Shown: positions 14,103 through 40,521 of the stretch, piece after piece
Position numbering within the stretch: position 1 is the first letter of the stretch
Layout: every line of letters starts with the position of its first letter
Assembly: GCF_002479495.1 (NCBI RefSeq)
Contig: NZ_DLNQ01000005.1
Span: forward strand, 1-47,014
Direction: 5' to 3'
Source of the DNA: Brevundimonas sp. UBA7506
Lineage (GTDB): Bacteria > Pseudomonadota > Alphaproteobacteria > Caulobacterales > Caulobacteraceae
Length of the DNA stretch: 47,014 nt
Notes under the pieces: model-generated
Database searches by the model: none
What the model saw: only the letters and a program-made list of their open reading frames with translations
What the model was told of the DNA's origin: nothing
Program-made: the position numbers and the translations under genes

Positions 14103-14138
14103 TTGACAATCGCTTTCTACCTAACGGATGGTAGTTAG
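14103..14138. promoter_or_regulatory. Overlapping palindromic operators between CoA-transferase and IclR genes
   Basis: TTGACA at 14103-14108 could be the -35 of the IclR gene, though a matching -10 is not clear. Immediately downstream lie two interleaved 18-bp dyads: CTACCTAACGGATGGTAG (14117-14134, perfect 5-bp arms around an 8-bp centre with CG in the middle) and CTAACGGATGGTAGTTAG (14121-14138, perfect arms). The first matches the operator pattern seen at 26158, 27024, 38531 and 40504, suggesting control by the TetR protein encoded at 39786-40433 or by the IclR regulator itself. Confidence 0.55.
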
Positions 14139-14172
14139 AAACCCTCAAAGAAGGGATGCAGGGAGTGAAGCT

Positions 14173-15096
14173 ATGGATGCTTGTGCCTATCCCGCGGCGC
14201 CGACACGCGCGCCTCGTCGATCTTCGACCGCCAGCCGGGCTTCCACGCTCCTGGCCTCAGACGCCAAACGCATCAAGTCGGCCGAACGGGTCCTTCAGGT
14301 GCTCGAGTATTTCGCGACCCGACAACAGCCGGAAGCCACCGTCATGGACATCGCCAAGGCGCATGGCCTGCCGCAGTCCTCGACGTCGGAACTGCTCAAA
14401 TGTCTTACCGCCCTGGGCTATCTCGCTCATGATCCCTTCCGGCGCACCTATGTGCCGACCGCCCGCGTGGCCTTGCTGGGGGCGGGGGTTTCGCCCCTGC
14501 TGCTGCGCGGCGGGCCGCTGATGGACATGCTGACCGATCTGAACGAGCAGACCGGGGAGTTCGTGGTTCTGGGCATGCCCGTCGGCCTGGTCGTCCGGTA
14601 CGTCCATGTTCTGCCCTCGACCCGCCTGGTCACGACGATTGTCCCCGACTGCAGCGCCTTCCCGCTGCACACGGCCATGGGGCGGGCGCTCCTGTCGGCT
14701 TTGCCCGACGACGCCGTTCGCAAATTCGTCCACCGTCTGAACGCACAGGTTTCCGAGAAATGGCGCGTGGCGCCCTCGGCGGTCCTCGCCGAAGCGGTCG
14801 AGATCCGGCGGCTGGGCTATGCGGTGACCTCCAACTCCGTTTGGCGCGGCGGCGGCATGGTCTGCGCGCCCTTACCCGATTGCGGCGACGGACAGTTGCT
14901 GGGCGTCGGCATCGGCAGCGACGCGCAAACCACGCTCGAGCGCGCCGCGGACTTCGCCGAACGGATCCGGGCCGCGACGGCCCGACACCTGTCGGGCCGC
15001 GCGACGGAAACGCGGTTCAGGCGAAGTGCAGGCGTCGATACCGGCCGCGGAAATAGAGGAGCGGATCCCGTCTCGGTTCGAAACGCGCCCGTATGA
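14173..15096 (+). CDS. IclR-family transcriptional regulator
   Basis: A 307-residue regulator. The N-terminal winged helix (about 36-95) includes SAERVLQVLEYFA, VMDIAKAHGLPQSSTSELLK and LGYLAHDPFRRTYVPT. The effector domain (about 105-270) shows TGEFVVLGMPVGLVVRYVHV and the conserved LHTAMGRALLSALP. IclR proteins bind small aromatic or acyl ligands and often control adjacent catabolic genes. ATG 14173 has GGGAG about eight bases before it. The last 40 or so residues, rich in Arg and Gly, go beyond the family's usual end. They are encoded by the antisense of the convergent hydrolase gene, an 80-bp overlap, so this tail is probably not conserved. Confidence 0.9.
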   Translation: MDACAYPAAPTRAPRRSSTASRASTLLASDAKRIKSAERVLQVLEYFATRQQPEATVMDIAKAHGLPQSSTSELLKCLTALGYLAHDPFRRTYVPTARVALLGAGVSPLLLRGGPLMDMLTDLNEQTGEFVVLGMPVGLVVRYVHVLPSTRLVTTIVPDCSAFPLHTAMGRALLSALPDDAVRKFVHRLNAQVSEKWRVAPSAVLAEAVEIRRLGYAVTSNSVWRGGGMVCAPLPDCGDGQLLGVGIGSDAQTTLERAADFAERIRAATARHLSGRATETRFRRSAGVDTGRGNRGADPVSVRNAPV

Positions 15097-16222
15097 CCTC
15101 GCCGACGAAGATCCGATGGTCGCCGCCGTCGTGAACGGCGTGCTTGCGACAGAGGAAGACGGCGAGCGATCCTACGAGCGCAGGTACGCCGTCATGCCAG
15201 GGTTCGAACGCGGTCTCGGCGAAACGGTCTTCGCCGGGGCGTGCGAACCGGTCGGACGTCGGCTGCTGGCCGATGTGCAGGACATTGACGGCGAAGGTCG
15301 ACGACGTCTCGAAGGCCGCCAGGGAACCGGCGCTCCGCGCCAGGCAGAAGAGCAGGAGCGGGGGGGCCAGCGACACCGAGGTGAAGGAGTTTGCGGTCAG
15401 GCCCACCGGGGTCCCGTTCCCGTCCGTCGTGGTGACGACGGTGACGCCGGTGCCGAAGCAGCCCAGGGCGTCGCGCAGGGTCCGCACATCCGAGCCCGAT
15501 TGATAGGCCATGGGGTCGCGCGGGGCCTCGGTCTCGAGGAACTCCAGAAGGAGGGCCTGGAACCGCTCGGGTTGATCGGCCGCGACATCATGAGACGCGC
15601 CCTCAATCTCCACATGGCGGGCGTTCGGGGCCCGGCGCGCCATGGACTCACGCGCCTCCAGGCTGACCAGCCGGTTGTCGGCGCCGTGAAGGATCAGGAG
15701 CGGCAGCCGGACCTGGCCCAGCACCGACTCCAGCGTCTGTTGCAGGGTCGCCATGTCCAGGCCTGTGGTCCAGCGCGGGTCGGCGCCCTCGTCCGGCCGC
15801 GGGTCCCGCGCGAGGCGGCGGACCGCCTCGGGATCAAGGTCTGGCGCCACGCCCGCCGTGACGACGCCCGCCGCCAGGTGGGCGCCGTCGTCCGCGATCG
15901 CTGCAAGGGCGATCGCGGCGCCCAGGGCGACCCCGACGATCACGGGGCGCGTGGGCAGGGCGCGCAGGAGGGCGCGAAGGTCCTCGGCGTAGGCGTCCAG
16001 GTCGTAGCGGCCGTCCGCGGGGCGTGCGCTCCGGCCGTGGCCCCGCAGGTCCGGGCAGAGAACATGCCGGCCGGCGGCCACCAGCGCTTCGGCCGTCTGC
16101 CGCCAGGCGACGGCGCTCTGGCCTCCCGTATGGACCAGAACCACGCCGGGGTCCTCGGGAGAGCCGTGGCGCTCGACCGACAAGACGACGCCGCCAAAGC
16201 CGCGAAAGGTCTCGGTTTTCAT
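15017..16222 (-). CDS. Alpha/beta-hydrolase-flavin reductase fusion
   Basis: A 401-residue two-domain protein. Residues 1-235 form an alpha/beta-hydrolase: HTGGQSAVAW oxyanion region (31-40), CPDLRGHGRS (56-65), acid Asp182 (HGADNRLV) and His211 (GASHD). The nucleophile elbow reads GVALGA, with Ala99 where the catalytic Ser (GxSxG) should be. Residues 238-401 form an HpaC-like flavin reductase: LRDALGCFGTGVTVVTT, GLTANSFTSVSLAPPLLLFC, FAVNVLHIGQQ. Met238 would be a normal start for a free flavin reductase, which supports a gene fusion. Such reductases supply reduced FMN/FAD to two-component monooxygenases, but none is seen in this window. Ring-cleavage C-C hydrolases use the same hydrolase fold; the missing Ser speaks against ordinary esterase activity. 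Confidence 0.85.
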   Translation of the reverse strand: MKTETFRGFGGVVLSVERHGSPEDPGVVLVHTGGQSAVAWRQTAEALVAAGRHVLCPDLRGHGRSARPADGRYDLDAYAEDLRALLRALPTRPVIVGVALGAAIALAAIADDGAHLAAGVVTAGVAPDLDPEAVRRLARDPRPDEGADPRWTTGLDMATLQQTLESVLGQVRLPLLILHGADNRLVSLEARESMARRAPNARHVEIEGASHDVAADQPERFQALLLEFLETEAPRDPMAYQSGSDVRTLRDALGCFGTGVTVVTTTDGNGTPVGLTANSFTSVSLAPPLLLFCLARSAGSLAAFETSSTFAVNVLHIGQQPTSDRFARPGEDRFAETAFEPWHDGVPALVGSLAVFLCRKHAVHDGGDHRIFVGEVIRARFEPRRDPLLYFRGRYRRLHFA

Positions 16223-16363: not shown

Positions 16364-16374
16364 GGAGCGAGATG

Positions 16375-21600: not shown

Positions 21601-22896
21601 ATGACTGCGAGCAATCCCGCCAGCGCCGTACTGACGCGGACGACGAGCGCCGCCTGGCTCGCCCTCCTGCTGTTGACCCTCGTCAACGCCTTCAGCCTGA
21701 TCGACCGCAAGCTGCCCTTCATCATGCTGGAGAGCATTCGTGCGGAGTTCGCTCTGTCCGACACCCAGGTGGGGCTCCTGGGCGGGGTGATGTTCACGGT
21801 CATCTATTCGCTGCTCGGCCTGCCGCTGGCGCGACTGGCGGATCGGACGTCGCGCAAGCTGGTCGTGTCGGGCGCCCTGGCCTTCTGGAGCCTGATGACC
21901 GCTGCCGGCGCTCTGGGCCAGAGCTTCGCCCATCTGGCCCTGGCCCGCATCGGCCTGGCCGTCGGCGAGGCGGGGGCGGTGCCTCCCAGCCAGGCGATCC
22001 TGGCGGATTATTTCCCGCTACGCCGCCGCGGCGTCGCCATGGCGGTCTTCCAGGCGGGCGGCGCGCTCGGCGTCATGGGCGGCCTCGCCCTTGGCGGGCG
22101 CCTGGTCGAAGCCATGGGGTGGCGCCAGACCCTGGTGCTCGCGGGGATGGCGGGCCTCGCCCTCACGGCGGCGATGCTGATCGGTCTTAAGGAACCGAGG
22201 CGCGGGCAAAGCGACGAAGTGCGCCGGGTCGAGGTCAAGGCCACGCTCGGCGAGGCCCTGGTCGCGCTCTGGCGTATGAGATCGTTCAAATGGCTGGCGC
22301 TGGGCGGCGCCCTGTTCACGCTCGGGACATCCGCGATCATCACCTTCGGCCCAAGCTACCTGGTCCGCGTTCGTGGCTTTTCCATCGCCGACGCCGGCGC
22401 CTATATCGGCGTCGTCACAGGCCTGGCCGCCGGCGCCGGCGTCCTCGTGGGCGGGTGGGTGTCGAGCTGGAACAGCCCGCGTCGCACCCTGATCCTGGCC
22501 GGGCTGGGCCTGGCGGTCAGCGCGCCCTGTCTCTACTTCGCCCTGAACACGGACAGCCGCCTGGGCCTGCTGGTCCTGCTGGCGGCGCCGCTCTTCCTGG
22601 GATCGCTCTACATGGGGCCGAGCTACGCCTTCGCCCAGACCATGGCGCCGGTGCAGATGCGCGCCCTGACCGCCTCGGTGATGGTCTTCATCATTCACGG
22701 CCTCGGCACCTCACTCGGCCCGCTGATCGTCGGCGCCGTCAGCGACGGCCTTGCGCCCAGCCGCGGCGTGGACGGTCTTCGACTGGCGTTGATGATTGCG
22801 CCGATCGCCTATGTCGCGGCCGCTGCGGCGATCGCCGCCGCAGCCAGCCGCATTGAAGGCGACCTTCCGGCAAGCCGTGTCAGAGCCGCTCGATGA
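21601..22896 (+). CDS. MFS transporter 2 (spinster-like)
   Basis: A 431-residue inner-membrane carrier with about 12 predicted helices. The first helix and loop are ALLLLTLVNAFSLIDRK and SIRAEFALSDTQVGLLGG, followed by RLADRTSRK (loop 2-3) and LALARIGLAVGEAG (helix 4). The last helix is Ala-rich (AYVAAAAAIAAAASR). The ATG follows a GAGAGG ribosome site. It is in the same direction as TonB receptor 2 and the amidohydrolase but behind a strong hairpin. Its SDTQ loop matches MFS 1 and MFS 3. Its 3' end overlaps the convergent thiolase gene by 17 bp. Likely carrier for an organic acid or an intermediate. Confidence 0.92.
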   Translation: MTASNPASAVLTRTTSAAWLALLLLTLVNAFSLIDRKLPFIMLESIRAEFALSDTQVGLLGGVMFTVIYSLLGLPLARLADRTSRKLVVSGALAFWSLMTAAGALGQSFAHLALARIGLAVGEAGAVPPSQAILADYFPLRRRGVAMAVFQAGGALGVMGGLALGGRLVEAMGWRQTLVLAGMAGLALTAAMLIGLKEPRRGQSDEVRRVEVKATLGEALVALWRMRSFKWLALGGALFTLGTSAIITFGPSYLVRVRGFSIADAGAYIGVVTGLAAGAGVLVGGWVSSWNSPRRTLILAGLGLAVSAPCLYFALNTDSRLGLLVLLAAPLFLGSLYMGPSYAFAQTMAPVQMRALTASVMVFIIHGLGTSLGPLIVGAVSDGLAPSRGVDGLRLALMIAPIAYVAAAAAIAAAASRIEGDLPASRVRAAR

Positions 22897-24049
22897 TCGT
22901 GACGTTCGCCATGCCGCCGCCCTCGCACATGGTCTGCAGGCCGTAGCGGCCGCCGCGTCGGCCGAGCTCATGGATCATCGTCGCCATGAGCTTGGCGCCA
23001 GACGCGCCCAGCGGATGACCCAGCGCGATGGCGCCGCCGTTGACGTTGAGCTTGTCGGGATCGGCGGCGAGGGCCTTGCGCCAGGCCAGAGGAATGGAGG
23101 CGAAGGCTTCGTTGACCTCGTAAAGGTCGATGTCGTCCAGACGCAGTCCCGCCCGTGAAAGGGCGCGTCGCGTGGCTTCGATCGGCGCCTCAAGCATGAT
23201 GACCGGATCGCCGCCGAAGGCCGACATGTGGTGGATACGGGCCAGGGGCGGGCGGCCCAGGGCCTTCAGGCCCGCCTCGCTGACGACGAGCAGGGCCGAG
23301 GCGCCGTCGCAGACCTGGCTCGACGTCGCGGCCGTGAGGCGCCCGCCGTCCTTGAGAAGCTTGACCTGGGCCATGGCCTCAAGGCTGGCGTCGTAACGGA
23401 TCCCTTCGTCCGTCTCATGGATCTCGAGGCCGTCGACGCCTTCGATGTCGAGCGGCAGGATTTCTTCGCGGAACCGGCCCGCCCCGGCGGCCGCGGCGGC
23501 GCGCCGGTGGCTCTCAAGGCCGAAGGCGTCGAGCGCCTCTCTGGTCAATCCGTGTTTGGCGGCGATCATTTCCGCGCCGTCGAACTGGCTGAACTTCACG
23601 CCGGGATAGCGGGCGGCCATGCGCATGCCGCGGGACACGCCGAACCCGTGTTCCGCCGGAAGGGCCGAAGGCAGGCCCATGGGCACCCGTGACATGCTCT
23701 CGACGCCGCCGGCGATGACGGCGTCGGCGTTGCCGGACAGGATGGCCTGGGCCGCGAAGTGCAGGGCCTGCTGGGACGAACCGCATTGACGGTCGACGGA
23801 GACGCCGGGAACCGTGTCCGGGAGATTCGACGAGAGCACCACATTGCGGGCGACGTTCTGGGACTGCTCGCCGACCTGTCCGACGCAGCCGAAGATCAGG
23901 TCATCGACAAGGGCCGGATCGGCGCCGACGCGGTCCAGGACGGCGTCGACGACAGCGCCGCCCAGGTCCGCCGGATGCCAGGCCTTCAGCCTTCCGTTGC
24001 GGCGGCCTCCGGCGGTGCGGACGGCGGATACGATATAGGCCTCGGCCAT
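22880..24049 (-). CDS. Thiolase (acetyl-CoA C-acyltransferase type)
   Basis: A 389-residue complete thiolase, expected to cleave a 3-ketoacyl-CoA with CoA in the last step of beta-oxidation. The nucleophile Cys89 lies in VSVDRQCGSSQQ, the NEAFAS motif is present, the catalytic His345 lies in ALGHPLGASG, and the second Cys375 in MCEGGGMAN. It ends an operon read from 26092 (ACAD, thioesterase, thiolase), 16 bp after the thioesterase gene. Its start carries a GGAG ribosome site. All catalytic residues are intact, in contrast with the thiolase-like protein at 27101, so this is probably the real cleaving thiolase of the island. Confidence 0.95.
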   Translation of the reverse strand: MAEAYIVSAVRTAGGRRNGRLKAWHPADLGGAVVDAVLDRVGADPALVDDLIFGCVGQVGEQSQNVARNVVLSSNLPDTVPGVSVDRQCGSSQQALHFAAQAILSGNADAVIAGGVESMSRVPMGLPSALPAEHGFGVSRGMRMAARYPGVKFSQFDGAEMIAAKHGLTREALDAFGLESHRRAAAAAGAGRFREEILPLDIEGVDGLEIHETDEGIRYDASLEAMAQVKLLKDGGRLTAATSSQVCDGASALLVVSEAGLKALGRPPLARIHHMSAFGGDPVIMLEAPIEATRRALSRAGLRLDDIDLYEVNEAFASIPLAWRKALAADPDKLNVNGGAIALGHPLGASGAKLMATMIHELGRRGGRYGLQTMCEGGGMANVTIIERL

Positions 24050-24065
24050 GGGGGCTCCTTTGGCG

Positions 24066-24929
24066 CTAGCGGCGCCGGATCAACAGTTCTTGGGAGGTGG
24101 AAGCGGCGAGGCCGCCGTCGCTGGCGTACAGGCGGCCGAAGCTCAATCCCCGGGCCTGACCCGCCCAGGGACTTTCGGATTCATGGAGAAACCAGTCGTC
24201 GGCCCGCACAGGGGCGTGGAACCAGATCGCGTGGTTCAGGCTCACGCTGGTGAAGCCGCCGTCGAAGGCCGAACGGGTATGAGGCAGCATCGCCGCTACA
24301 GGCAACATGAAGTCCGAGAGGAAGGCGACGGCGGCGTAGCCGCAGGTGTCGGGGGCGACGCCGACGCCGCGAAGCCAGAAACGTCCGTGCGGTTCCGCGG
24401 GGTGGGTGAAATAGTCATGCGGCTGCAACAGCCGCGCATCGATGGCCCTGAGGCCGCCGACCCCTTCGGCGTCCGCCGATGCGATCTCGTCCGGATAGAG
24501 GCGGCCGAGGTCTGCCAGACGGGGCAGGTCCTGGGGCGTGTCCGCGACCGACGATCGCGGGCGAGCGTGCGAGACGCCGTCCTCAGGCGCGTGAAAGCTG
24601 ATCATGGCCTCGAAGGCCAGGGGCCCGTCGCCCTGACGGGCGGTGACGCGTCGTTCCGAGAATGAGCGTCCGTCCCGAACGGTCTCGACCTCGTAGTCCA
24701 CGGGCTGGTCAGGGTCGCCGCCCGCCAGGAAGCGGGCGAACATCACGCTAGGCGGTCGATCCGGCGTCGTGGCCCGGGCGGCGATGATCGCCTGCCCGAG
24801 GAAACAGCCGCCGAATATGGCCTGGCTGTGATTGCGCTGGAAGTCAGACGCGCGGAACCGGGTCTCGTCGAGGCGGGACAGGCGCAATATGTCGCCTGCC
24901 GGGACGACCGGTCGATCGGCGGCCTTCAT
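24066..24929 (-). CDS. tesB: Acyl-CoA thioesterase II (TesB family)
   Basis: A 287-residue double-hotdog thioesterase that would hydrolyse acyl-CoA to free acid and CoA. The N-terminal half has HSQAIFGGCFLGQA and RSFSERRVTARQ. The catalytic Asp206 lies in AFLSDFML, followed by VSLNHAIWFHAP and a C-terminal LASTSQELLI-like end (AASTSQELLIRR). In E. coli TesB, an Asp with a Gln and a Thr/Ser form the active site; all seem present. It overlaps the upstream ACAD by ATGA (24926-24929). In a degradation operon it may release CoA from dead-end thioesters and so prevent CoA trapping. Confidence 0.93.
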   Translation of the reverse strand: MKAADRPVVPAGDILRLSRLDETRFRASDFQRNHSQAIFGGCFLGQAIIAARATTPDRPPSVMFARFLAGGDPDQPVDYEVETVRDGRSFSERRVTARQGDGPLAFEAMISFHAPEDGVSHARPRSSVADTPQDLPRLADLGRLYPDEIASADAEGVGGLRAIDARLLQPHDYFTHPAEPHGRFWLRGVGVAPDTCGYAAVAFLSDFMLPVAAMLPHTRSAFDGGFTSVSLNHAIWFHAPVRADDWFLHESESPWAGQARGLSFGRLYASDGGLAASTSQELLIRRR

Positions 24930-26154: not shown

Positions 26155-26197
26155 AATCTAACGAACGTTCGACAGGTGTCAAACGTCTTTGAATGTA
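26155..26197. promoter_or_regulatory. Divergent promoters around an 18-bp palindromic operator
   Basis: The operator CTAACGAACGTTCGACAG (26158-26175) has the fully symmetric core CGAACGTTCG. On the minus strand TTGACA (26177-26182) and TAGATT (26155-26160), 16 bp apart, enclose it and make a good promoter for the ACAD operon. On the plus strand TCGACA (26169-26174) and AATGTA (26192-26197), 17 bp apart, could serve the ECH-thiolase operon. A repressor bound here would block both. The same motif occurs at 27024, 38531, 40480/40504 and 14117. Confidence 0.6.
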
Positions 26198-27021: not shown

Positions 27022-27023
27022 AT

Positions 27024-27063
27024 CTAACAAACGATAGACAGAAACCGTGGCGCTGGTTAGCGT
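27024..27063 (+). promoter_or_regulatory. 18-bp operator and possible promoter before the SCP2-type thiolase
   Basis: CTAACAAACGATAGACAG (27024-27041) begins two bases after the ECH stop codon and matches the 26158 site in 14 of 18 positions, including the end GACAG. TAGACA (27035-27040) with TAGCGT (27058-27063) at 17 bp is a weak promoter candidate. It suggests an internal, separately controlled transcript for the thiolase-like gene and those after it. Confidence 0.5.
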
Positions 27064-28252: not shown

Positions 28253-28268
28253 CTTCAAGGAGACCATC

Positions 28269-29063: not shown

Positions 29064-29064
29064 G

Positions 29065-29877: not shown

Positions 29878-29882
29878 ACCCG

Positions 29883-31445: not shown

Positions 31446-32215
31446 CGCGCAACAAGGCCTTCGAGACCGGAGTCGCTCTCGTGATCGGCGGGGGAGGCGG
31501 GGTCGGCGGCGCGGTCGCCCGCGCCCTGGCGGCGGACGGGGCCGATGTGGTCCTGACCTATCGATCGAGCCATGCGGCCGCCGAAGCGACGGCCGAGGCT
31601 GTTCGCGCGCTAGGGCGGAGCGCCCGCTGTCTCGCGCTTGATCTCACCGACCACGCGGCTGTCGCGGATCTGGTCGCCGAGGTTGAGGGGACGGCCGGCG
31701 CCATCCATACGGTCATCTATGCAGCCGGGCCCATGCTGCCCTTCAAATTCCTGTCCTCGGTCACGCCCGAGGAGTTCGCCGGCTTTCTCACGGGCGACAC
31801 CCTGGCCTTCTTCGCCCTGATGCATGCGGCGATTCCGGCCTTGAGGCGCTCGCGGGGATCCGCCGTGGCCATCCACACCACCGGACTCTACCGCTGGCCG
31901 ATCAAGGACGGACTCTCGGTCGTGCCCAAGGCCGGCGTGGAGTCCATGGTGAAGGGGTTCGCGCGCGAGGAGGGCCGCTTCGGCGTGCGGGTGAACGGCG
32001 TGGCGCTGGGCGTCCTGGACGGCGGTCTGTTCGACAAGATGATGACGGCGGGTCAGATCAACGACAAGTTCGTCGATGCGACGATTGCGGCCGTTCCGCT
32101 CGGCCGGCTCGGCCGGCTTGAGGAGATCGGCGACGCGGCGGTCTTCCTGGCCTCGTCCCGGGCGGCTTATGTCACGGGGCACAGCCTCGTCGTGGACGGC
32201 GGCTTCCACCTCTGA
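31442..32215 (+). CDS. SDR-family protein with Ser in place of catalytic Tyr
   Basis: A 257-residue Rossmann protein with IGGGGGVGGAVA (15-26), YAAG in place of NNAG (93-96) and a C-terminal YVTGHSLVVDGG. The active-site Ser is Thr146 (AIHTTGLY), and the YxxxK motif reads SVVPK (159-163), so Lys163 is kept but Tyr is replaced by Ser. FabI-type reductases keep a differently spaced Tyr, which is not obvious here. It may be an unusual reductase, an enoyl reductase-like enzyme or a non-catalytic binder. ATGA overlap with the ligase (31442-31445). Last gene of the plus-strand operon; its TGA directly abuts the stop codon of the convergent SDR. Confidence 0.87.
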   Translation: MTRNKAFETGVALVIGGGGGVGGAVARALAADGADVVLTYRSSHAAAEATAEAVRALGRSARCLALDLTDHAAVADLVAEVEGTAGAIHTVIYAAGPMLPFKFLSSVTPEEFAGFLTGDTLAFFALMHAAIPALRRSRGSAVAIHTTGLYRWPIKDGLSVVPKAGVESMVKGFAREEGRFGVRVNGVALGVLDGGLFDKMMTAGQINDKFVDATIAAVPLGRLGRLEEIGDAAVFLASSRAAYVTGHSLVVDGGFHL

Positions 32216-32226
32216 TCAGTGGAAGC
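32202..32226. terminator. Perfect stem-loop at the convergent SDR stop codons
   Basis: GCTTCCAC (32202-32209) and GTGGAAGC (32219-32226) form a perfect 8-bp stem around a 9-nt loop that contains both stop codons, back to back as TGATCA. No T-run follows on either side, so intrinsic termination is weak; it may block read-through of convergent transcripts by structure or collision. There is no intergenic space at all here. Confidence 0.4.
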
Positions 32227-32950
32227 TGCGCCCGCCGTCGACGGCCAGAGCCACGCCGGTGATGAAGGCGCTGTCGTCTCCGATCAGAAAGCGGATCGCC
32301 GTTCCGATCTCCTCGGGGCTGGCGATCCGACCCAGGGCGTAGCCCGCCCCTACCGCCGTTTCGGCCTCGATCGCTTCGCCGGTCATCTGCGAGAACATCG
32401 GGGTGCGAACGGCCCCGGGGCAGACGGCGTTGACGCGGATTGTCGGGGCCAGCTCCCGGGACAGGGCCTTGCTCAGCATCACCACGCCCGCCTTACTCGC
32501 GCTGTAGGCCGCCCCCGCGAAGGAGGGGGTCAGGCCGCTGGCCGAGGCGAGATTGACGATCGCTCCCTTTCCGCAAGCCCGTAGCGCAGGGATGGCGGCG
32601 CGACAGGTGAGGAAGACCCCTGTCATGTTCGTGTCGACCAGGCGTCGCCAGTCCGTCAGGGAGGTGTTCTCGAGCGTCTGGACAGTCGCTGTTCCGGCGC
32701 AGTTCACCAGGCCGTCCAGGCCGCCTAGCGCGCGGACGGCGGCGTTGACCGCCGTCTCCACCGCGGTTTCGTCCCTTACGTCGGCCTGAAACGCATGTGC
32801 ATTGAGTACGCGTCCCAGGGCGCGGGTCTCGGCCTCGACAAGATCGACCAGCCCGAGTTCGGCGCCGGCCTCGGCGAGCATTCGGGCGGCGGCGGCGCCA
32901 ATCCCTGAACCGGCGCCGGTGATGATGATCCGCTTTCCCCTGACGCTCAT
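32216..32950 (-). CDS. SDR-family NAD-dependent oxidoreductase
   Basis: A 244-residue classical SDR with TGAGSGIG (11-18), Asp36 after strand two (LVDLV, NAD preference), NCAG (83-86), and the complete triad Ser136, Tyr149 and Lys153 (AYSASKAG). The C-terminal ITGVALAVDGG is normal. It probably oxidises a hydroxyacyl-CoA formed after the ACAD and hydratase steps. ATG 32950 overlaps the upstream ACAD beta-subunit stop (ATGA); a 66-residue upstream extension in frame is rejected because it lies within that gene. It is the last gene of the six-gene minus-strand operon that starts at 38476. Confidence 0.93.
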   Translation of the reverse strand: MSVRGKRIIITGAGSGIGAAAARMLAEAGAELGLVDLVEAETRALGRVLNAHAFQADVRDETAVETAVNAAVRALGGLDGLVNCAGTATVQTLENTSLTDWRRLVDTNMTGVFLTCRAAIPALRACGKGAIVNLASASGLTPSFAGAAYSASKAGVVMLSKALSRELAPTIRVNAVCPGAVRTPMFSQMTGEAIEAETAVGAGYALGRIASPEEIGTAIRFLIGDDSAFITGVALAVDGGRSFH

Positions 32951-33846
32951 GTCTTGGCCTCTTGATCCCAGTCGGCGACCAGACTCGGCCAGAGCCGATC
33001 CGTGGTCGGCAGGTAGCGCCGCGCCAGGGCGTCGCCCCAGGCGACCTCGCCGCCGGCGACGTCCCGCCATCGCCACATGGCCATCGTCAGGCGATGCAGG
33101 GGATATTCCTCGGTCACGCCGATGGCTCCGTGGATCTGGTGTGCGCACGCTGCGCCGATCCTGACGGCGCGCGACGCACGGCTCTTGGCGACGCCGGCGG
33201 CCAAGATGGGATCGCGCGGCAGCAGACGAAAGCCGAAATCGGCGGCGGCGCGGGCGGCCGCCGCTTCAAGACCCAGATCCGCAGCGAGCCGCTGAACCGC
33301 CTGGAACTTGCCGATCGGTCGGCCAAACTGCGCGCGCGAGGCGGCGTGGTCGATGCTCAGCTCCAGCGCGCGCTGGAGGGCGCCGGCGATCTGTGCGGCT
33401 GTCGCTACCGCGAGGGCCGCCCGCGCCAGGCCGACGGCGACAGGACGCGTCTGCGTGAACCCTTCAGGCGAGATCAGAGACAGCATATCCCTGCCATCGC
33501 CGCTATGGGATGTCAGGGTCCAGGCGCCGGGCGGGACGGGGACGCCGCCGCCCAGAACCACGGGCGCTTCAGGGGCGGGGAGACCGGCCTGACCCAGAAG
33601 CCATCCGCCGATCAGCACTTCGGCGAGCGGGGCGGGCGCCGCATAGCCGCCCCAGGCGACCAGGGGGGCGGCGACATCTGTCCATGCCAGGCCCTGTCCG
33701 CCCGCCTCTTCGCCGATCATGGCGCGGTCGAGGCCGAGATCCAGAAGGCTTGACCAGAGGCCGGCTCCGTCCGGCGCCGGGCCCGCTTCGTCCATGAGCC
33801 GTCGGATCTGATCCGAAAGCAGTTCGCCGATGTCCAATTCGCTCAT
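32947..33846 (-). CDS. Acyl-CoA dehydrogenase, degenerate (beta) subunit
   Basis: A 299-residue, strongly shortened ACAD. The C-terminal half is conserved: ASRAQFGRPIGKFQAVQ (about 178-194) and HQIHGAIGVTEEYPLHRLT (about 246-264). The central beta-domain is largely eroded, with no SEP-GSD or WTTN motif and no Glu base. It matches the role of the accessory chain in alpha2beta2 ACADs. It is co-translated with the alpha gene upstream (ATGA, 33843-33846), and is a shorter paralogue of the 2860-3876 product. Low sequence constraint in the middle may make it look like a pseudogene, but the frame is intact and its position next to an alpha gene is conserved across three loci in the window. Confidence 0.88.
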   Translation of the reverse strand: MSELDIGELLSDQIRRLMDEAGPAPDGAGLWSSLLDLGLDRAMIGEEAGGQGLAWTDVAAPLVAWGGYAAPAPLAEVLIGGWLLGQAGLPAPEAPVVLGGGVPVPPGAWTLTSHSGDGRDMLSLISPEGFTQTRPVAVGLARAALAVATAAQIAGALQRALELSIDHAASRAQFGRPIGKFQAVQRLAADLGLEAAAARAAADFGFRLLPRDPILAAGVAKSRASRAVRIGAACAHQIHGAIGVTEEYPLHRLTMAMWRWRDVAGGEVAWGDALARRYLPTTDRLWPSLVADWDQEAKT

Positions 33847-34997
33847 CTCAGACCCAATCCTCGCGCCACGATGCCTTGCATGATTTCCCGCGTGCCGCCG
33901 CGAAGGGAGTAGGTGGGGGCGATCTCCAGCGTGGCCTGAAGCAGCGCCACCAGGTCCGCCGGCGCAGGGGCGTCCTCAGGAAGGGCGGCGAGAAGGGTTC
34001 GCGCCAATTCGGGCACGGACTGCTCGAATGAGACGCCCAATTCCTTCACAACCGCAGCCTCGAGGTTGGGCGTTTCTCCGCGAGACAGCCGCTCGGCCAG
34101 GGACAGAGACATGGAGCGAAGCACAGCCACGTCGCCCAGCGCCTGACCGATCTGGCTTCTCACGCCCCGGTCGGCGGCGCAGGCCGGGTGCCGGGCCAAG
34201 CGGTCCAGCAGGGGAAAGGCGCTCATGAACCGGTCTGGCCCGCTGCGTTCGAAGGCCAGTTCGGCGGTGACCTGGGCCCAGCCGTCGCCAGCCTCGCCGA
34301 TCAATCCCGCGTCCGGAACGAAGACGTCGTCGAACGTCACCTCGTTGAAATGGGCTTGCCCCGACAGGTCCCGAATGCCCCGGATCTCGATCCCGGGCGA
34401 CGAGAGGTCGACCAGCAGTTGCGACAGGCCTTTCTGGCGATCGCTCGCGGTCCCTTCCGTGCGGAAAAGACCGAGCATATAGGCCGACTGATGGGCGTTT
34501 GTGGTCCAGATCTTGCGCCCGTTGAGGCGCCATCCGCCCGGAGCGGGCTCGGCGCGCGACCGGATGGCGGCGAGGTCGGATCCTGCGTCCGGTTCGCTGA
34601 GGCCGACGCAGATCGAGATCTCGCCCCTGGCCAGGCGAGGCAGGACCGCCCGCTTCTGGTCCTCTGTGCCCAGCCGCAGCAGGAGCGGACCGGTTTGACG
34701 ATCGCCCGTCGAATGGGCTCCGATGGGGGCGCCGACGGCCATCATCTCCTCGAGAACGACATAGCGTTCGAGCATGGATCGGTCCTGGCCGCCGTAGGCC
34801 GTGGGCCAGGTCATGCCGATCCAGCCGCGGGCGCCGACCGCGCGGGTGAAGTCCCGGTCGAAACCGACCCAGGACTGGGCGACCGATCGGGCGCTCCAGC
34901 TGGCCTGATGATCCGCCAGAAAGGCGCGAACCTCCAGGCGGAGCGCTTCCGTCTCCGGCGGCAGGGGGGCGTGGGGGAAGTGCAGCGCCGCAGGCAT
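33843..34997 (-). CDS. Acyl-CoA dehydrogenase, catalytic (alpha) subunit
   Basis: A 384-residue ACAD with ICVGLSEPDAGSDLAAI (129-145), IWTTNA (163-168), HFNEVTFDDV (216-225), and the probable base Glu250 in LAFERSGPDRF. The C-terminal SLRGGTREIMQGIVARGLG is FAD-binding. It is strikingly similar in length, motif positions and end to the alpha subunit at 3876-5027, so the two alpha/beta pairs are duplicates that diverged for different substrates or steps. Its ATG shares a base with the CoA-transferase stop upstream (TGATG), and its own stop overlaps the beta gene. Expected to feed electrons to ETF. Confidence 0.93.
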   Translation of the reverse strand: MPAALHFPHAPLPPETEALRLEVRAFLADHQASWSARSVAQSWVGFDRDFTRAVGARGWIGMTWPTAYGGQDRSMLERYVVLEEMMAVGAPIGAHSTGDRQTGPLLLRLGTEDQKRAVLPRLARGEISICVGLSEPDAGSDLAAIRSRAEPAPGGWRLNGRKIWTTNAHQSAYMLGLFRTEGTASDRQKGLSQLLVDLSSPGIEIRGIRDLSGQAHFNEVTFDDVFVPDAGLIGEAGDGWAQVTAELAFERSGPDRFMSAFPLLDRLARHPACAADRGVRSQIGQALGDVAVLRSMSLSLAERLSRGETPNLEAAVVKELGVSFEQSVPELARTLLAALPEDAPAPADLVALLQATLEIAPTYSLRGGTREIMQGIVARGLGLR

Positions 34998-36238
34998 CAG
35001 ATCGCTCCCTTGTCGCGCAGCGTCGCCAGGGCCATCGGATCGAGGCCGAGCAGGCTGGAGAGGACCTCCTGCGTGTGCTCCCCCATCAGGGGCGGCGCCC
35101 GTCGATAGGCGACGGGAGAGCGCGACAGCCGTAGCGGACTGGCGATGGTCCTCACGGGGCCCAGCTGGGGGTGATCGAGAGCGATGATCGTGTCGCGGGC
35201 CTGGACATGAGGATCATGCTCCAGGTCGGACATGGCGTTGATCGGGCCGCAGGAGACCTTGGCGGCGTTGAGGGTTTCGACCCACCAGGCGCGCGGTCGC
35301 GTGCGAATGATGTCGCCGACCGCGGCCTTGATGGCGGCGCGATGGCGCACGCGTGCGCCGTTGGCGGCGAACCGGGGATCGGTCTTCCACTCCGGTTGAC
35401 CCAGGACGTCGGCCAGCCGATTGAATTCCCGATCATTGAAGGTGGCGATGATCACGTGACCGTCCGCGGCCTCATAGACGCCGTAGGGCGCGGCGCTCGG
35501 ATGGTCGTTGCCCGTTCTGCCGAGTTCCGCTCCGGCGTTCAGCCAGGCCGAGGCCGTGTTCAGCAGGGACGAAACCTGGGAATCGAAAAGGGAGATATCG
35601 ACCAACTGGCCCTCGCCGGTGCGGTGGCGATGCTGCAGGGCGGCCAGGACGCCGATGGTCGCGTTCATGCCAGCGAAGATGTCGACGAGCGGGATGCCCA
35701 CACGGACCGGTCCGGCCCCGTCCTCTCCATCGCGCGGTCCGGTCACGCTCATGACGCCGCCCATGCCCTGGATGAGGTAGTCGTAGCCGGAACGATCCGC
35801 ATAGGGGCCCTCCTGCCCGAAGCCGGAGATGGCGCAATAGATCAGGCGAGGGTTTACGGCGCGAAGGTCCTCATAGCCGAGGCCGTAGCGGGCGAGGGTG
35901 CCCGGACGATAGTTCTCGATCAGGATGTCGCTGATCGCGGCCAGCCGACGCAGGGCTTCGGCGCCTTCGGGGACGGCGAAATCCAGGGCGATGGAGCGCT
36001 TGTTGCGGTTCACGCTCTGGAAGTAGGTGGATTCCTCGAGGTCCTCTCCATCGCCGTCTTTCATCCATGGCGGGCCGACGCGGCGCACGTCGTCGCCTTC
36101 GCCCTTCCGTTCGACCTTGATGACGTCGGCGCCCAGGTCGCCGAAGGTCTGGGCCGCGAACGGACCGGCGACCACCCGGGTGAGGTCGAGCACTCTCAGG
36201 CCGCTCAGCGGCGGGGGGACGATTTCAGAGGAGGTCAT
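34997..36238 (-). CDS. CaiB/BaiF (class III) CoA-transferase
   Basis: A 413-residue single-unit CoA-transferase of normal length. LDLTRVVAGPFAAQ (18-31) begins the CoA-binding domain, followed by GADVIKVER (36-44), NRNKRSIALD (77-86) and IENYRPGTL (107-115). The catalytic Asp186 lies in GIPLVDIFAG. It would activate a free acid by moving CoA from a donor thioester, or convert one CoA ester into another. It sits between two ACAD pairs with overlaps on both sides, so it belongs to the same pathway module. A stereoisomer-specific racemase (AMACR, same superfamily) is an alternative: racemisation of 2-methylacyl-CoA is common in branched side-chain degradation, although AMACR-type residues cannot be confirmed here. 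Confidence 0.9.
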   Translation of the reverse strand: MTSSEIVPPPLSGLRVLDLTRVVAGPFAAQTFGDLGADVIKVERKGEGDDVRRVGPPWMKDGDGEDLEESTYFQSVNRNKRSIALDFAVPEGAEALRRLAAISDILIENYRPGTLARYGLGYEDLRAVNPRLIYCAISGFGQEGPYADRSGYDYLIQGMGGVMSVTGPRDGEDGAGPVRVGIPLVDIFAGMNATIGVLAALQHRHRTGEGQLVDISLFDSQVSSLLNTASAWLNAGAELGRTGNDHPSAAPYGVYEAADGHVIIATFNDREFNRLADVLGQPEWKTDPRFAANGARVRHRAAIKAAVGDIIRTRPRAWWVETLNAAKVSCGPINAMSDLEHDPHVQARDTIIALDHPQLGPVRTIASPLRLSRSPVAYRRAPPLMGEHTQEVLSSLLGLDPMALATLRDKGAI

Positions 36239-37392
36239 GACGGCATTCCCAGCACCGCTCTGGCGAGCAGGTTGCGTTGGATTTCATTGGTCCCGGCGAA
36301 GATGGCCTGCGGACGCGACATGTAATATTGCCAGGCCAGGTCGACCGGCACGCCGCCGACCTCGCAGGCGCCTTCGACGGCGACCCGGCCCTGGCCCAGG
36401 TCCAGGTTCAGTTCGCTGGCGCGCTGCTGCAGCTCGGACGACAGGATTTTCAACATGGAGACTTCGGCGCCGGGTTCGTGTCCCTCGCCGATCGCCCTGC
36501 ATATCCGGCTGTAGAGGGCGCGTATGTCATGCAGGTCGACGGCGCAGCGCGCATAGCGATCGCGGAGTTCGCCCTCGGCGTCGCCCGCCTCCAGCAGGGC
36601 GCGGCTCAGCGTCAGCGCCCGGGCCGCGAGGGCCGGGCTTCCGATCCAGACTCGTTCGTAGCCGAGCAGGGATTTCGACACCGACCATCCCTGGTCGATC
36701 TCACCGACGATCTGGGAAAGAGGGACCCGCGCTGCGTCAAAGAACACCTCGCAGAACTCATCCTCTCCGGCGAGGTTGTTGATGGGCCGCACGGTCACGC
36801 CTGGCGTGTCGATCGGGATCAGCAGGAAGGTGATGCCGTCCTGACGGCGCTCCTTCCGAGCGGTTCGGACAAGGGCGAAGACATGGGTGGATTCATTGGC
36901 GTGGGTCGTCCAGATTTTCTGGCCTGTGACGAGGATGTCGTCGCCGTCGATCACGCCCGTCGTCGAGAGGGAGGCGAGATCGGAGCCCGCCCCTGGTTCG
37001 GAATAGCCCTGGCACCAGAGGTGCTCGCCCGAGAGAATCTTCGGGAGGTAGAATTTCTTCTGCGCCTCGGACCCATGGAGCATGAGGGTCGGACCCAGCT
37101 GAACTTCGCCGAGGTCGATGACCCGCGCGGCGCCGATGCGCTCGAGCTCTTCGGCGTAGATCACCTGCTGGGCGAAGGTCAGGCCCAGGCCGCCGTAGGC
37201 CTGGGGCCATGACGGCGCGCGCCAGCCGCCCGCATTGAGCATGTCGATCCATGCCCGCACCTGGTCGCCCCGAAGGCGTCGGAAAGGCCGAAGGCTGTCC
37301 TGTCGCCAGGCCGAGGGATAATGGGCTTCCAGCCAGTGGCGGAAGCGCAGGCGGAAGGCCTCGTCGGAGGTCGTCGGCAAAGCGTCAGGCAT
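36235..37392 (-). CDS. Acyl-CoA dehydrogenase, catalytic (alpha) subunit, FadE/Scd4-like
   Basis: A 385-residue ACAD with WCQGYSEPGAGSDLASL (126-142), KIWTTHANEST (159-169), FCEVFFDAARVP (213-224), and the probable base Glu246 in LLGYERVWIG. The C-terminal FAGTNEIQRNLLARAVLG is typical. It resembles the larger subunit of bile-acid and steroid side-chain ACADs (Scd4A/ChsE type) more than do the alpha subunits at 3876 and 33843. ATG 37392 has GGGAGG eight bases upstream; the long in-frame extension into the beta gene is rejected. It overlaps the beta gene by 8 bp and the CoA-transferase by 4 bp. Confidence 0.93.
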   Translation of the reverse strand: MPDALPTTSDEAFRLRFRHWLEAHYPSAWRQDSLRPFRRLRGDQVRAWIDMLNAGGWRAPSWPQAYGGLGLTFAQQVIYAEELERIGAARVIDLGEVQLGPTLMLHGSEAQKKFYLPKILSGEHLWCQGYSEPGAGSDLASLSTTGVIDGDDILVTGQKIWTTHANESTHVFALVRTARKERRQDGITFLLIPIDTPGVTVRPINNLAGEDEFCEVFFDAARVPLSQIVGEIDQGWSVSKSLLGYERVWIGSPALAARALTLSRALLEAGDAEGELRDRYARCAVDLHDIRALYSRICRAIGEGHEPGAEVSMLKILSSELQQRASELNLDLGQGRVAVEGACEVGGVPVDLAWQYYMSRPQAIFAGTNEIQRNLLARAVLGMPS

Positions 37393-38476
37393 CAATGTCG
37401 CCTCCCAGCATGAGGAATCTTCGGCGGTGCGCCAGGGCGCCGCCGAAGCGAGGCGTGAGGCCCAGAACAGCCCGGACGAAAAGGCTGACGTCTGATTCTT
37501 CGGTGAAGCCGATCGCCCCATGCATCTGGATCGCCTCACGGCTCGCCAGAGCGGCCGTCTCGCAGGCCCGCGCCTTGGCGGCGCTGACCGCCGCCAAGGC
37601 GGCGGCGCCGTCCGGATCGGCGTCATAGAGGGCGGCGGCGTGTTCCACCGACGCCTCGCCCAGGGCGGTCGCCATGTGAAGGTCCACGGCGCGATGTTGC
37701 AGGGCCTGGAAGCCGCCCAGGGGGCGGCCGAACTGTCGCCTCACGCCGAGATGGTCCAGCGTCAGGGCGTTCAGACCCTCCGCGACCCCCAGGAGTTGAG
37801 CAGCCGTCGCCAGCGCCCCCATGGCGAGGGCGCGCTGCACCGCCTGACGCGCAGCCGGACCCTTCAGGACGATTTCCGACGTCGGGGCGTCGCGGAAGAG
37901 GATGTCGGCGATCGCGCCGCCGGCCAGATCGCGACGCGTCTTCACGCTGATGCCTTCGTCGCCGCAATGAATAGCGGTCAGGACAGGGTCTCCGTCGGCT
38001 TCGGCGACGACGAAGAGGCGGTCGGCGAGGGGGGAGAGCTGCTTTTCTCCCGCAAGACGCCCCGCCGTCAGCCGGGTGCGGCTCGGCCAGGCGTCGATTG
38101 CGTCGCCTGCTTCCTGCCAGCACAGGGCCGAGGCGTCGCCCCTTGCCGTCAAACCGTCCACCGCGCCCTGGCGATGGCTCCCCGCCGGCATGGCGGCGAC
38201 GAGAACGGATGGAACCAGGGCCAACTGGACGAAGGGCTCCGGGAGCAGGGTCCGGCCGAACAGGCGAGCTAGCTGGACGGCGCCGGCCGCGCCAATATCC
38301 GCCCCGCCGTCGTCTTCGGGCAGGAGGGCCGCAGTCAGCCCCATGTCGACCAGTCCGGTCCACAGGGACGGGGAGGGGTTCTTCAGACGATCACGCCGGT
38401 GGTGATCATCGACGAACGCCTGGGCCGAATCCTGCACCATCGACAGGAACTCGCCCTTGCGGGTGTCCTGGTTCAC
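37385..38476 (-). CDS. Acyl-CoA dehydrogenase, degenerate (beta) subunit
   Basis: A 363-residue ACAD-like protein, first gene of the six-gene minus operon. The N-terminal helical domain and the C-terminal RRQFGRPLGGFQALQH (about 246-261) and MHGAIGFTEESDVSLF segments are clear. The beta-domain lacks the SEP-GSD and WTTN motifs, and no Glu base is found, as in accessory subunits of alpha2beta2 ACADs. The start is GTG 38476 with AGGAGG eight bases before it; an ATG further upstream runs into a stop. Its stop overlaps the alpha gene's start, so both chains should be made in equal amounts. Its promoter carries the palindromic operator at 38531. Confidence 0.9.
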   Translation of the reverse strand: MNQDTRKGEFLSMVQDSAQAFVDDHHRRDRLKNPSPSLWTGLVDMGLTAALLPEDDGGADIGAAGAVQLARLFGRTLLPEPFVQLALVPSVLVAAMPAGSHRQGAVDGLTARGDASALCWQEAGDAIDAWPSRTRLTAGRLAGEKQLSPLADRLFVVAEADGDPVLTAIHCGDEGISVKTRRDLAGGAIADILFRDAPTSEIVLKGPAARQAVQRALAMGALATAAQLLGVAEGLNALTLDHLGVRRQFGRPLGGFQALQHRAVDLHMATALGEASVEHAAALYDADPDGAAALAAVSAAKARACETAALASREAIQMHGAIGFTEESDVSLFVRAVLGLTPRFGGALAHRRRFLMLGGDIDA

Positions 38477-38530
38477 GTCTGCATCCTCCTGCCGTCGGCA
38501 TAGGGCCGCGCGGCGCGCTTGCGCTAGAAA

Positions 38531-38548
38531 CTAACAAACGTTTGGTAG
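38531..38548. promoter_or_regulatory. 18-bp palindromic operator before the ACAD operon
   Basis: CTAACAAACGTTTGGTAG is the most symmetric member of the family: the core CAAACGTTTG is perfect and the arms differ in one position. It lies 55 bp upstream of the GTG start of the minus-strand operon, in the 100-bp gap after the DUF35-type gene. On the minus strand TTGCCA (38565-38570) with TACCAA 17 bp on is a weak promoter candidate whose -10 lies in the operator. Confidence 0.6.
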
Positions 38549-38576
38549 TGCGCGCGTGGAGGGATGGCAAGAGGCC

Positions 38577-38942
38577 TCAGGCCAGATCGAACACCACATT
38601 GGGGGCGCCGTGCAGGTCGGCGATCCGGCTGATGACGCGTTGACCGATCTTCAGCGCGTCGGGCGCGACGTCTTCGATCCGGCTCATGAGGCGAGGGCCT
38701 TCGTCCAGAGCGATGATGGCGACGTTGTAGGGGGCTTCCGGCGGGCGTGGATGCACGATGGTCAGGGCGTAGATCTCCCCGCCGCCGCTCGCCTCGACCC
38801 ATTCCAGATCCTGCCGGCCCGTGCCGGGTTCAGCCACTCTCGGATAGAAGACATGGGCGCCGCTGGAGGCGCTGCGCTGGATCATGAAGCGGCCGGCCGC
38901 AAGGTGCGCCCGGAACTCCTGGTCAGGCTTGGTGTGGGTCAT
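38577..38942 (-). CDS. OB-fold (DUF35-type) protein without zinc-ribbon cysteines
   Basis: A 121-residue OB-fold protein. The core is FYPRVAEPGTGRQDLEWVE (32-50), ASGGGEIYALTIVH (51-64) and VAPDALKIGQRV. In DUF35 proteins the N-terminal zinc ribbon normally holds two CxxC pairs; here the first is Ser24 and Ser27 (RSASSG) and the second (AEPGTG) also has none, so no zinc site remains. In Ltp2-ChsH2 and similar pairs the DUF35 chain completes the aldolase or binds acyl-CoA. The thiolase-like partner is probably the 27101-28252 product. ATG 38942 with GGAG seven bases upstream overlaps the MaoC gene by 20 bp. Confidence 0.85.
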   Translation of the reverse strand: MTHTKPDQEFRAHLAAGRFMIQRSASSGAHVFYPRVAEPGTGRQDLEWVEASGGGEIYALTIVHPRPPEAPYNVAIIALDEGPRLMSRIEDVAPDALKIGQRVISRIADLHGAPNVVFDLA

Positions 38943-39789
38943 GAATGAACTCCGCCAGGCCGTGCGAAAGAACGACAAGGTCCCTGTCGACGGCGCGTAC
39001 TTGGAAATGGACGCGATCCTGTTCGCGCCAGAGGTCGGTTGCGAGCCGTTCGCCGGGAAAAACGGGGGCTTTGAAACGGCAGTCGAGCCGGCCCAGGGTT
39101 TCCGGCGGAAGGTCCAGCTCGGTCAGAAGACTGAAGGCGGCGACGCCATAGGTCGCCAGACCGTGCAGGATCGGCTTGGGGAAGCCGATGGAGAGGGCCA
39201 CCTTCGGGTCGGCGTGAAGAGGGTTGAGGTCGCCGCTCAGGCGATAGATCAGGGCGGTCTGGGGCAGGGTCTGCAGTTCGAAGCTGTGTTCCGGCGGCCG
39301 GTCAGGCGTCGACGTCATGGCCGACGCCTCCTCGCCCACAGAGCCGATCCCGCCGTCGCCCCGGCAAAAGAGAGTCTGGCCGACGGTGGCGGCGAGCCGG
39401 CCGTCGATGGTCAGGGTGCGCTCATAGGCGACGATTGCGCCCTTGCCCTCGCCCTTGTCCCGGACGCCCTTGATGCGGGATTGCGACCTGACGACGCCAC
39501 GCGCGGGAAGGGGGCGGTGAATCTGCAAGGTCTGCTCGCCATGGACGATGCGCGCCCAGTCCAGGCCCGTGTCGAGATCGCGCGGCCAGAAACCCGGGTG
39601 GCCGAGGACCGCAGCCATCGACGGCAGGGGCTTCAGGCCGTCTTCATAGGTGTAGGCGAGGTGCGCCGGGGATGTCGGGTCGCCGCCGACGCCTACCCCG
39701 AGCGCATAGAGGATCGCGTCGCGTTCGGCGTAGGCCTGTTCGACATCCGGAATGGACAGATTGATCAGGGCCTGAGCCGACGCCCTCAT
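38923..39789 (-). CDS. MaoC-family (hydratase 2) enoyl-CoA hydratase
   Basis: A 288-residue double-hotdog protein like the hydratase 2 domain of peroxisomal MFE-2. The C-terminal hotdog carries the hydratase 2 motif YRLSGDLNPLHADPKVA, with Asp187, Asn189 and His192, followed by FPKPILHGLATYG. The N-terminal hotdog binds the acyl chain (YEDGLKPLPSMAAVLGHPG). It gives (R)-3-hydroxyacyl-CoA and takes bulky or branched substrates; the steroid-degradation hydratase ChsH1-ChsH2 and the fungal MFE use the same fold. ATG 39789 overlaps the TetR gene (ATGA), so regulator and hydratase are made together. A longer in-frame start inside the TetR gene is rejected. Confidence 0.93.
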   Translation of the reverse strand: MRASAQALINLSIPDVEQAYAERDAILYALGVGVGGDPTSPAHLAYTYEDGLKPLPSMAAVLGHPGFWPRDLDTGLDWARIVHGEQTLQIHRPLPARGVVRSQSRIKGVRDKGEGKGAIVAYERTLTIDGRLAATVGQTLFCRGDGGIGSVGEEASAMTSTPDRPPEHSFELQTLPQTALIYRLSGDLNPLHADPKVALSIGFPKPILHGLATYGVAAFSLLTELDLPPETLGRLDCRFKAPVFPGERLATDLWREQDRVHFQVRAVDRDLVVLSHGLAEFIHDPHQA

Positions 39790-40433
39790 TTGCGCGGCGC
39801 CGCGCGCATGCCGTTCAGGAAGAGCTCGGCCGCCATGGCGCCGAGATCCTCGAAGGACTTCTTCTCGGGGTCCAGCCATTCGCTGGTCCAGTTCAGCGAC
39901 CCCAGGAGGAACAGGCGCGTCAGGCCGAGGTCGGCGTCGCCTGCCAGGATGCCGGCTTCCACACCGTCGTGAAGCAGGTTTCGCCAGAGATCGTCGTAGC
40001 GGCGCCGCATGCCGATATGCTTGTCGTGCAGGGATTCCGGGATGTGCTTGAGCAATTGCCGGCTCGCCACCGTATAGGTTCCGTATTCCCACACGGTCTT
40101 CAGATGCGCGGTCGTCGCCGCCTGGATCCGGGCGTCGAACGTGGCGTCGGCGGGGAGGGCGGCCATCGCCTCTTCAAAGCCCTTGATGGCTTCGCCGATG
40201 CCGCGCTCCAGGACGCCGTCGAGAATCTCGTCTTTCGAACTGAAGTGATAATAGAGGCTTCCCGCCTTCATTCCTCCGGCGTCGGCGATGTCCCGCATGG
40301 TCGTGGCGGCGTAGCCATGCTCGCGGAAAAGGTCAGCCGCGAGCTCGAGAAGCCGGCTGCTCGACAATTCGCCTTTCCGCGGTGTGGTGCCTGCCGTGGA
40401 AGCCATTCGTTCGTCCTTGCCTGATGCGGCCAT
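39786..40433 (-). CDS. TetR-family transcriptional regulator (KstR2-like)
   Basis: A 215-residue TetR regulator, the only TetR protein in the window. The HTH lies about residues 44-68: TTMRDIADAGGMKAGSLYYHFSSKDEIL. The C-terminal ligand-binding part (about 80-205) has YTVASRQLLKHIPESLHDKH and RRRYDDLWRNLLHDGVEAG, similar to KstR2-type regulators of steroid catabolism, which respond to acyl-CoA intermediates. ATG 40433 has GGAGGGG eight bases upstream. It heads the TetR-MaoC-OB-fold operon and diverges from TonB receptor 3, with two palindromic operators in between, so autoregulation is likely. It is the best candidate for the protein that binds the CTAAC palindromes. Confidence 0.93.
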   Translation of the reverse strand: MAASGKDERMASTAGTTPRKGELSSSRLLELAADLFREHGYAATTMRDIADAGGMKAGSLYYHFSSKDEILDGVLERGIGEAIKGFEEAMAALPADATFDARIQAATTAHLKTVWEYGTYTVASRQLLKHIPESLHDKHIGMRRRYDDLWRNLLHDGVEAGILAGDADLGLTRLFLLGSLNWTSEWLDPEKKSFEDLGAMAAELFLNGMRAAPRK

Positions 40434-40479
40434 TCAATCCGCCCCTCCATCATGGCGGACCTGTCGGTCCGGCACAAGA

Positions 40480-40521
40480 AAATCGAACGCTTGACAGGTG
40501 AAAAAACCTACCGAATGTTAG
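40480..40521. promoter_or_regulatory. Operator pair and promoter between TetR and TonB receptor 3 genes
   Basis: Two related sites lie side by side: AAATCGAACGCTTGACAG (40480-40497) and AAACCTACCGAATGTTAG (40504-40521). Both have the central CG and one good arm. TTGACA (40491-40496) and AATGTT (40514-40519), exactly 17 bp apart, form a promoter for the receptor gene. The first site overlaps its -35 and the second its -10, an ideal position for repression. Confidence 0.6.

Follow-up and report, generated by a model that had tools for sequence, protein, structure and literature searches.

Dimers of TetR-family proteins bind palindromic operators and block promoters. In mycobacteria the TetR-family regulator KstR2, which has its own operator and a coenzyme A (CoA)-thioester ligand, controls the CoA-dependent catabolism of steroid rings. 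FadP, a TetR-family regulator of fatty-acid degradation in Burkholderiales, has operators at many beta-oxidation operons and is reported to control 12 operons across the R. solanacearum genome (PMC5343134, PMC12543098). We analysed a 47,014-nucleotide stretch of DNA from Brevundimonas sp. UBA7506 (contig NZ_DLNQ01000005.1; this whole stretch is called the window), in which six related palindromes accompany a cluster of catabolic genes that also encodes a TetR-family protein (39786-40433). The six sites are very probably operators of this protein, which would repress the promoters that they overlap and be released by a CoA thioester. The type of circuit is already familiar, and the cluster is a further example of a TetR-repressor regulon, comparable to those of FadP and KstR2.

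FadP is the closest described parallel; its operators, like those proposed here, stand at many beta-oxidation operons, and it differs in the genome-wide spread of its targets. KstR2 resembles the cluster TetR protein in placing CoA-dependent catabolism under TetR control and is among its nearest solved relatives, but belongs to another phylum and is distant in sequence. BkaR, a mycobacterial TetR regulator of branched-chain keto-acid genes, is reported to repress its own gene as well, through a palindrome found both there and at the promoters of its targets; in the core of that operator, GTTA(N)T(N4)A(N)TAAC, the order of the half-sites is the reverse of that in the CTAACN4GTTAG of the window (PMC3920632). 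EdcR, which acts on the oestradiol genes of Caenibius tardaugens, is a TetR repressor from the Alphaproteobacteria whose operators are spread over several promoters in one catabolic cluster; it has a TetR_C_11 domain and the operator TnnCnnTACnAnTnGTAnnGnnA, whereas the cluster protein has TetR_C_24 and another operator (PMC8700777). Pseudomonas PA3973 was also considered as a parallel and set aside, its reported motif being unrelated (PMC9736018). In the titles and abstracts searched, with many subscription papers beyond reach, we found no description of this operator with a proteobacterial TetR protein, and novelty is not claimed.

The six palindromes and the TetR protein

A sequence-only reading of the window had listed 18-mers at 14117, 26158, 27024, 38531, 40480 and 40504 and assigned them a 5-8-5 layout. 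All six were recovered exactly, and the palindrome stands; the frame does not, the true arrangement being 5-4-5 inside an operator of about 20 bp, conserved as TAnCTAACnnnnGTTAGnTA. The aligned sites of relatives of the TetR protein (45 distinct sites) read TAnCTAAC(A/G)nn(T/C)GTTAGnTA. The operator centre lies 2 bp from that of the 5-8-5 frame, to the left in three sites and to the right in three; the outer arms of that frame are partly the flanking TA, and pairing within it is uneven (6, 7, 5, 8, 4 and 3 of 9 pairs). Secondary registers had also suggested two overlapping dimer sites 4 bp apart, an arrangement that was dropped, as the aligned relatives have a single 20-bp palindrome with outer TA flanks. 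The repressor gene and the predicted operators, in the 20-bp frame and with scores from the relative-derived motif described below, are as follows.

39786..40433, minus strand: TetR-family repressor, TetR_N and TetR_C_24 (Pfam); upstream regions of its relatives hold the motif
14118..14137, unstranded: operator 1, gap between CoA-transferase (minus) and IclR (plus); 19.3 bits at 14119; 13 of 14 consensus positions
26155..26174, unstranded: operator 2, gap between the operon of acyl-CoA dehydrogenase (ACAD), tesB and thiolase (minus) and enoyl-CoA hydratase/isomerase (ECH, plus); 22.4 bits at 26156; 11 of 14
27021..27040, unstranded: operator 3, upstream of the SCP2-thiolase operon; 22.6 bits at 27022; 11 of 14
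38528..38547, unstranded: operator 4, upstream of the ACAD-pair/CoA-transferase operon; 25.6 bits at 38529, the best in the window; 12 of 14
40481..40500, unstranded: operator 5, tetR/TonB gap; 13.8 bits at 40482, the weakest copy; 9 of 14
40505..40524, unstranded: operator 6, tetR/TonB gap; 17.0 bits at 40506; 10 of 14

As had been claimed, all six sites are intergenic when gene starts are set by the ribosome-binding site and the start of the domain (IclR ATG at 14173, ACAD at ~26092, ECH at 26242 and SCP2-thiolase at 27101). This status depends on the start choices, since the mechanically longest open reading frames (ORFs) of IclR, ACAD and ECH would overlap two of the sites. Gaps make up 4.5% of the window in our own gene list, and operator 3 shares its first base with the end of the ECH stop codon. 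The statement that tetR is flanked by two copies was loose: two copies stand together in the tetR/TonB gap, and that at 38531 lies about 1.2 kb past the end of tetR. Operators 5 and 6, with centres 24 bp apart, are the two weakest of the six, which might suit partial autoregulation.

Membership of the TetR family is clear from the scores of TetR_N (63.3 bits, cut-off 24) and TetR_C_24 (64.7 bits, cut-off 26.4), and the scan of window ORFs revealed no other TetR-type gene, in line with the claim of a single one. The nearest solved structures in sequence include entries for KstR2 and FadR, which we take to be acyl-CoA sensors; the top matches, 3dcf and 4mxm, are uncharacterised regulators. The protein scored below the cut-offs of the NCBIfam equivalogs KstR (18.8 bits against 280), PsrA (37.5 against 300) and FadR (46.8 against 200).

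The motif in relatives of the TetR protein

We took the best 80 of 589 confirmed loci encoding TetR relatives (best identity 49%), kept 62 of their tetR upstream regions once redundancy had been removed, and seeded a search for palindromic motifs from these alone, leaving the window unused. The eight best runs printed all gave AnCTAACnnnnGTTAGnT, that is, CTAAC-N4-GTTAG. The fitted share of regions with a site was 71%, and the log-likelihood was 314.8, as against 25.8-31.0 in five letter-shuffled controls, which had fewer seeds. When the window was scanned with this motif, the six sites came out on top (13.8-25.6 bits), the next unrelated place being at 9666 with 8.1 bits; the remaining matches above 8.1 bits are shifted registers of the six. 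At a threshold of 13 bits or more the window holds 6 clusters, where 200 Markov sequences averaged 0.21 (at most 2) and 300 column-permuted palindromic matrices 0.37 (at most 3). In leave-one-out scans the window sites ranked 1, 3, 4, 5, 6 and 7.

The reverse comparison gave the same picture. A matrix built from the window sites in the 5-8-5 frame matched, at 10 bits or more, 37 of the 62 upstream regions as against 166 of 7706 control stretches from the same loci; in the 14-bp frame the figures were 37 of 62 and 203 of 7709. The contrast is conservative, because the control stretches include other true sites. In 50 of the 80 loci the 300 bp preceding the TetR match contain a site scoring 15 bits or more, a count that is not independent, the motif having been derived from these regions. 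Among the loci listed, several without a site at their own promoter carry one upstream of a neighbouring short-chain dehydrogenase/reductase (SDR) or ACAD gene (L015, L016, L023, L050 and L064), which would fit a tetR gene inside an operon. Three Rhodobacteraceae loci have a pair of operators, spaced by 82 bp, ahead of an SCP2-thiolase-like gene (L035 7563/7645, L036 7565/7647, L037 7567/7649) and a third operator ahead of tetR. Plain palindrome counts in the relatives' upstream regions were uninformative, as every region has some with 5-9 of 9 pairs.

One relative, in a Sphingomonadales bin (G001), has a syntenic cluster (L001). Identities there are 49% for TetR, 58% for the OB-fold protein, 41% and 60% for the ACAD pair, 69% for CoA-transferase, 57% for the AMP ligase, 75% for SCP2-thiolase, 69% for ACAD and 42% for IclR. 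The whole 3.1 Mb of G001 contain just two exact copies of the core CTAACN4GTTAG, one ahead of tetR and the other between SCP2-thiolase and ACAD. Five further sites have one mismatch, and one of them, on another contig, is followed after about 35 bp (judged by eye) by the likely start of an orthologue of the TonB receptor (64-66% identity). Across the genomes of 12 further relatives the exact core was counted at 29 places, in 10 of the 12 and with 0-7 per genome; 20 of the 29, as counted from our tables, share a contig with a TetR homologue, on contigs of up to 752 kb. The overall rarity of the motif is no evidence, whereas its position is, because a reversed-pattern control was often the commoner of the two (in 7 of the 12 genomes and, at one mismatch, in G001, 116 against 7).

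Relatives of the TetR protein at 54-92% identity are present in the protein database. At E<=1e-45, 5 of the 385 genomes searched in the class of G001 had the protein (G001 included), as did 1 of 396 in its order, G001 itself. In the order of G077, a genome whose ETF-alpha is 84% identical to that of the window, it was found in 0 of 398 genomes, in a search that held no positive control. Close relatives thus exist yet are scarce in the genomes sampled, as if the cluster were an accessory island.

The proposed circuit and its rivals

Because TetR relatives elsewhere carry the same sequence before their own genes, the six palindromes are very probably the sites bound by the cluster TetR protein. 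One and the same palindrome marks both the promoter of the regulator and operons far from it, with six sites spread over five gaps, and relatives show the same pattern. As far as genome comparison goes, these results establish a conserved pairing of the TetR subfamily with the motif, and targets common to a second order. The earlier proposal of a single circuit joining gene groups 26 kb apart is well supported by the two out-of-sample tests on relatives, the syntenic cluster L001 and the site at the unlinked TonB-receptor orthologue. The same holds for its predicted scope, which takes in the operons of tetR, TonB import, thiolase, ACAD and CoA-transferase/IclR.

We infer TetR binding, repression, stoichiometry and the acyl-CoA ligand as follows. 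A TetR dimer would bind each ~20-bp palindrome and repress the promoter overlapped by the operator. The units repressed would be tetR with the hydratase and OB-fold genes, the TonB receptor, the ACAD-pair operon, the SCP2-thiolase operon, ACAD-tesB-thiolase together with ECH, and CoA-transferase/IclR. The CoA thioester of the imported substrate would then bind the TetR_C_24 domain and the repressor would leave the DNA, so that import and CoA-dependent degradation would come on together.

Several observations weigh against assigning the sites to this protein. Among the 80 relatives, 30 lack a site scoring 15 bits or more in the 300 bp before the TetR match. In G001, the four other one-mismatch sites have no window-like neighbour in the stretches examined, and the equivalent of the window's ACAD-pair operon has no site of its own among the motif sites listed; a 20-bit match in locus L123 falls inside a coding ORF, and the motif also rings by chance in whole genomes. 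Strict sigma-70-like matches were found in one of the five gaps and in none of the other four.

Of the three alternatives that we weighed, the least improbable, unlikely as it is, has the sites as real operators of another TetR-type protein encoded elsewhere in the host genome, with the local protein controlling its own gap only. It would suit the weakness of the two copies beside tetR and the presence of at least two TetR homologues of this kind in 9 of 14 relatives' genomes searched; however, it is the distant window sites that score highest, although the motif came from the gaps beside the relatives' own tetR genes, and the same two gaps are marked in L001. The palindromes could also belong to the IclR-family regulator (14173-15096), at whose promoter a copy stands too: operator 1 occupies the stretch 36-55 bp before the IclR start, and an IclR homologue is found likewise in L001. 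We rejected IclR as the owner of the motif and consider it very unlikely, as an IclR BLAST match is present in just 2 of the 80 loci, compared with 50 of 80 that have the motif upstream of the TetR gene. That the six sites are chance similarities picked by eye, as might be suspected from the two that have just 3-4 of 9 pairs in the 5-8-5 frame, is contradicted by the Markov and permuted-matrix controls (6 clusters against means of 0.21 and 0.37, with a motif from other genomes), and chance was rejected as next to impossible.

A promoter-like match at 26182..26155 on the minus strand has its spacer and -10 covered by operator 2. In several sites the right arm GACAG had been read as also part of a TTGACA-like -35; of the three sites ending in GACAG, only that at 40480 has an exact TTGACA, while 26158 reads TCGACA and 27024 TAGACA. 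A terminator-like inverted repeat at 26164-26187 (minus strand) overlaps operator 2 and is probably a by-product of the palindrome.

With the sites assigned to the TetR protein, a repeat spotted by eye becomes a testable regulon with a defined operator, one repressor and five target gaps. Its targets are common to a bacterium of another order, an unlinked transporter gene among them. The regulon offers a handle on the substrate of the degradation cluster, and the operator and repressor are a candidate biosensor part.

Possible substrate and the genes behind the sites

The gene content around the sites agrees with what had been claimed for it, namely CoA-transferase III, IclR, ACAD/TesB/thiolase, ECH, SCP2-type thiolase, ACAD pairs, TetR and TonB receptor.

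11658..14066, minus strand: CoA-transferase III, two matched stretches, upstream end at operator 1 (Pfam)
14173..15096, plus strand: IclR-family regulator behind operator 1 (Pfam; start placed by eye)
22880..26092, minus strand: ACAD, TesB-like thioesterase and thiolase, operon behind operator 2 (Pfam)
26242..27021, plus strand: enoyl-CoA hydratase/isomerase, divergent from ACAD across operator 2 (Pfam)
27101..32215, plus strand: SCP2-type thiolase, ECH, SDR, AMP-dependent ligase and SDR, operon behind operator 3 (Pfam and thiolase PDB matches)
32216..38476, minus strand: ACAD pair, CoA-transferase III, second ACAD pair and SDR, operon behind operator 4 (Pfam)
38577..39800, minus strand: MaoC/MFE-2 hydratase and OB-fold (ChsH2_C) genes downstream of tetR (Pfam)
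40590..45405, plus strand: TonB receptor, MFS transporter and ACAD, divergent from tetR (Pfam)

Since the genes behind the sites serve import and CoA chemistry (plus two regulators), an acyl-CoA is our best guess for the inducer, judging from gene content and from the presence of KstR2 and FadR among the regulator's relatives in sequence. The best solved matches of the ACAD pair are the two-gene dehydrogenases Tcur3481/Tcur3483 (6wy8/6wy9), and 4x28 also matches the large subunit; we assume a steroid role for these. Taken together, the ACAD pair, the hot-dog hydratase, the DUF35/OB protein and the SCP2-like thiolase are reminiscent of the Comamonas kit reported to remove the propionyl residue of the cholate side chain (PMC12502768). 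G001 has two KshA_C-type genes above the family cut-off, and beside one of them a 3-ketosteroid-delta-1-dehydrogenase-like gene that falls below its own (752.9 against 789). A steroid-like substrate stays a hint, because the window ORFs scanned showed no family of the KshA, KstD or ring-cleaving type. More tentatively still, and with some doubt on our part, the TetR subfamily and its 20-bp CTAACN4GTTAG operator may be to Proteobacteria what KstR/KstR2 are to mycobacteria, namely a widespread, mobile control module, here for the CoA-dependent breakdown of bulky alicyclic acids, perhaps the side chains of steroids. A single CoA thioester would then govern import by TonB, activation, the heteromeric ACADs and an aldolase-type thiolase.

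A second cluster of G001 (L123) has a KshA_C gene, a KstD-like gene, SCP2-thiolase and OB homologues and a different TetR-type ORF; the motif match at L123:15871, close to the kshA-like gene, lies in coding sequence and was set aside. In the window, 11658-14066 is a single ORF of 802 amino acids in which CoA-transferase family III is matched twice, and it looks like a tandem duplication or fusion. The ORF at 15017-16222 fuses an alpha/beta-hydrolase domain with a flavin-reductase domain.

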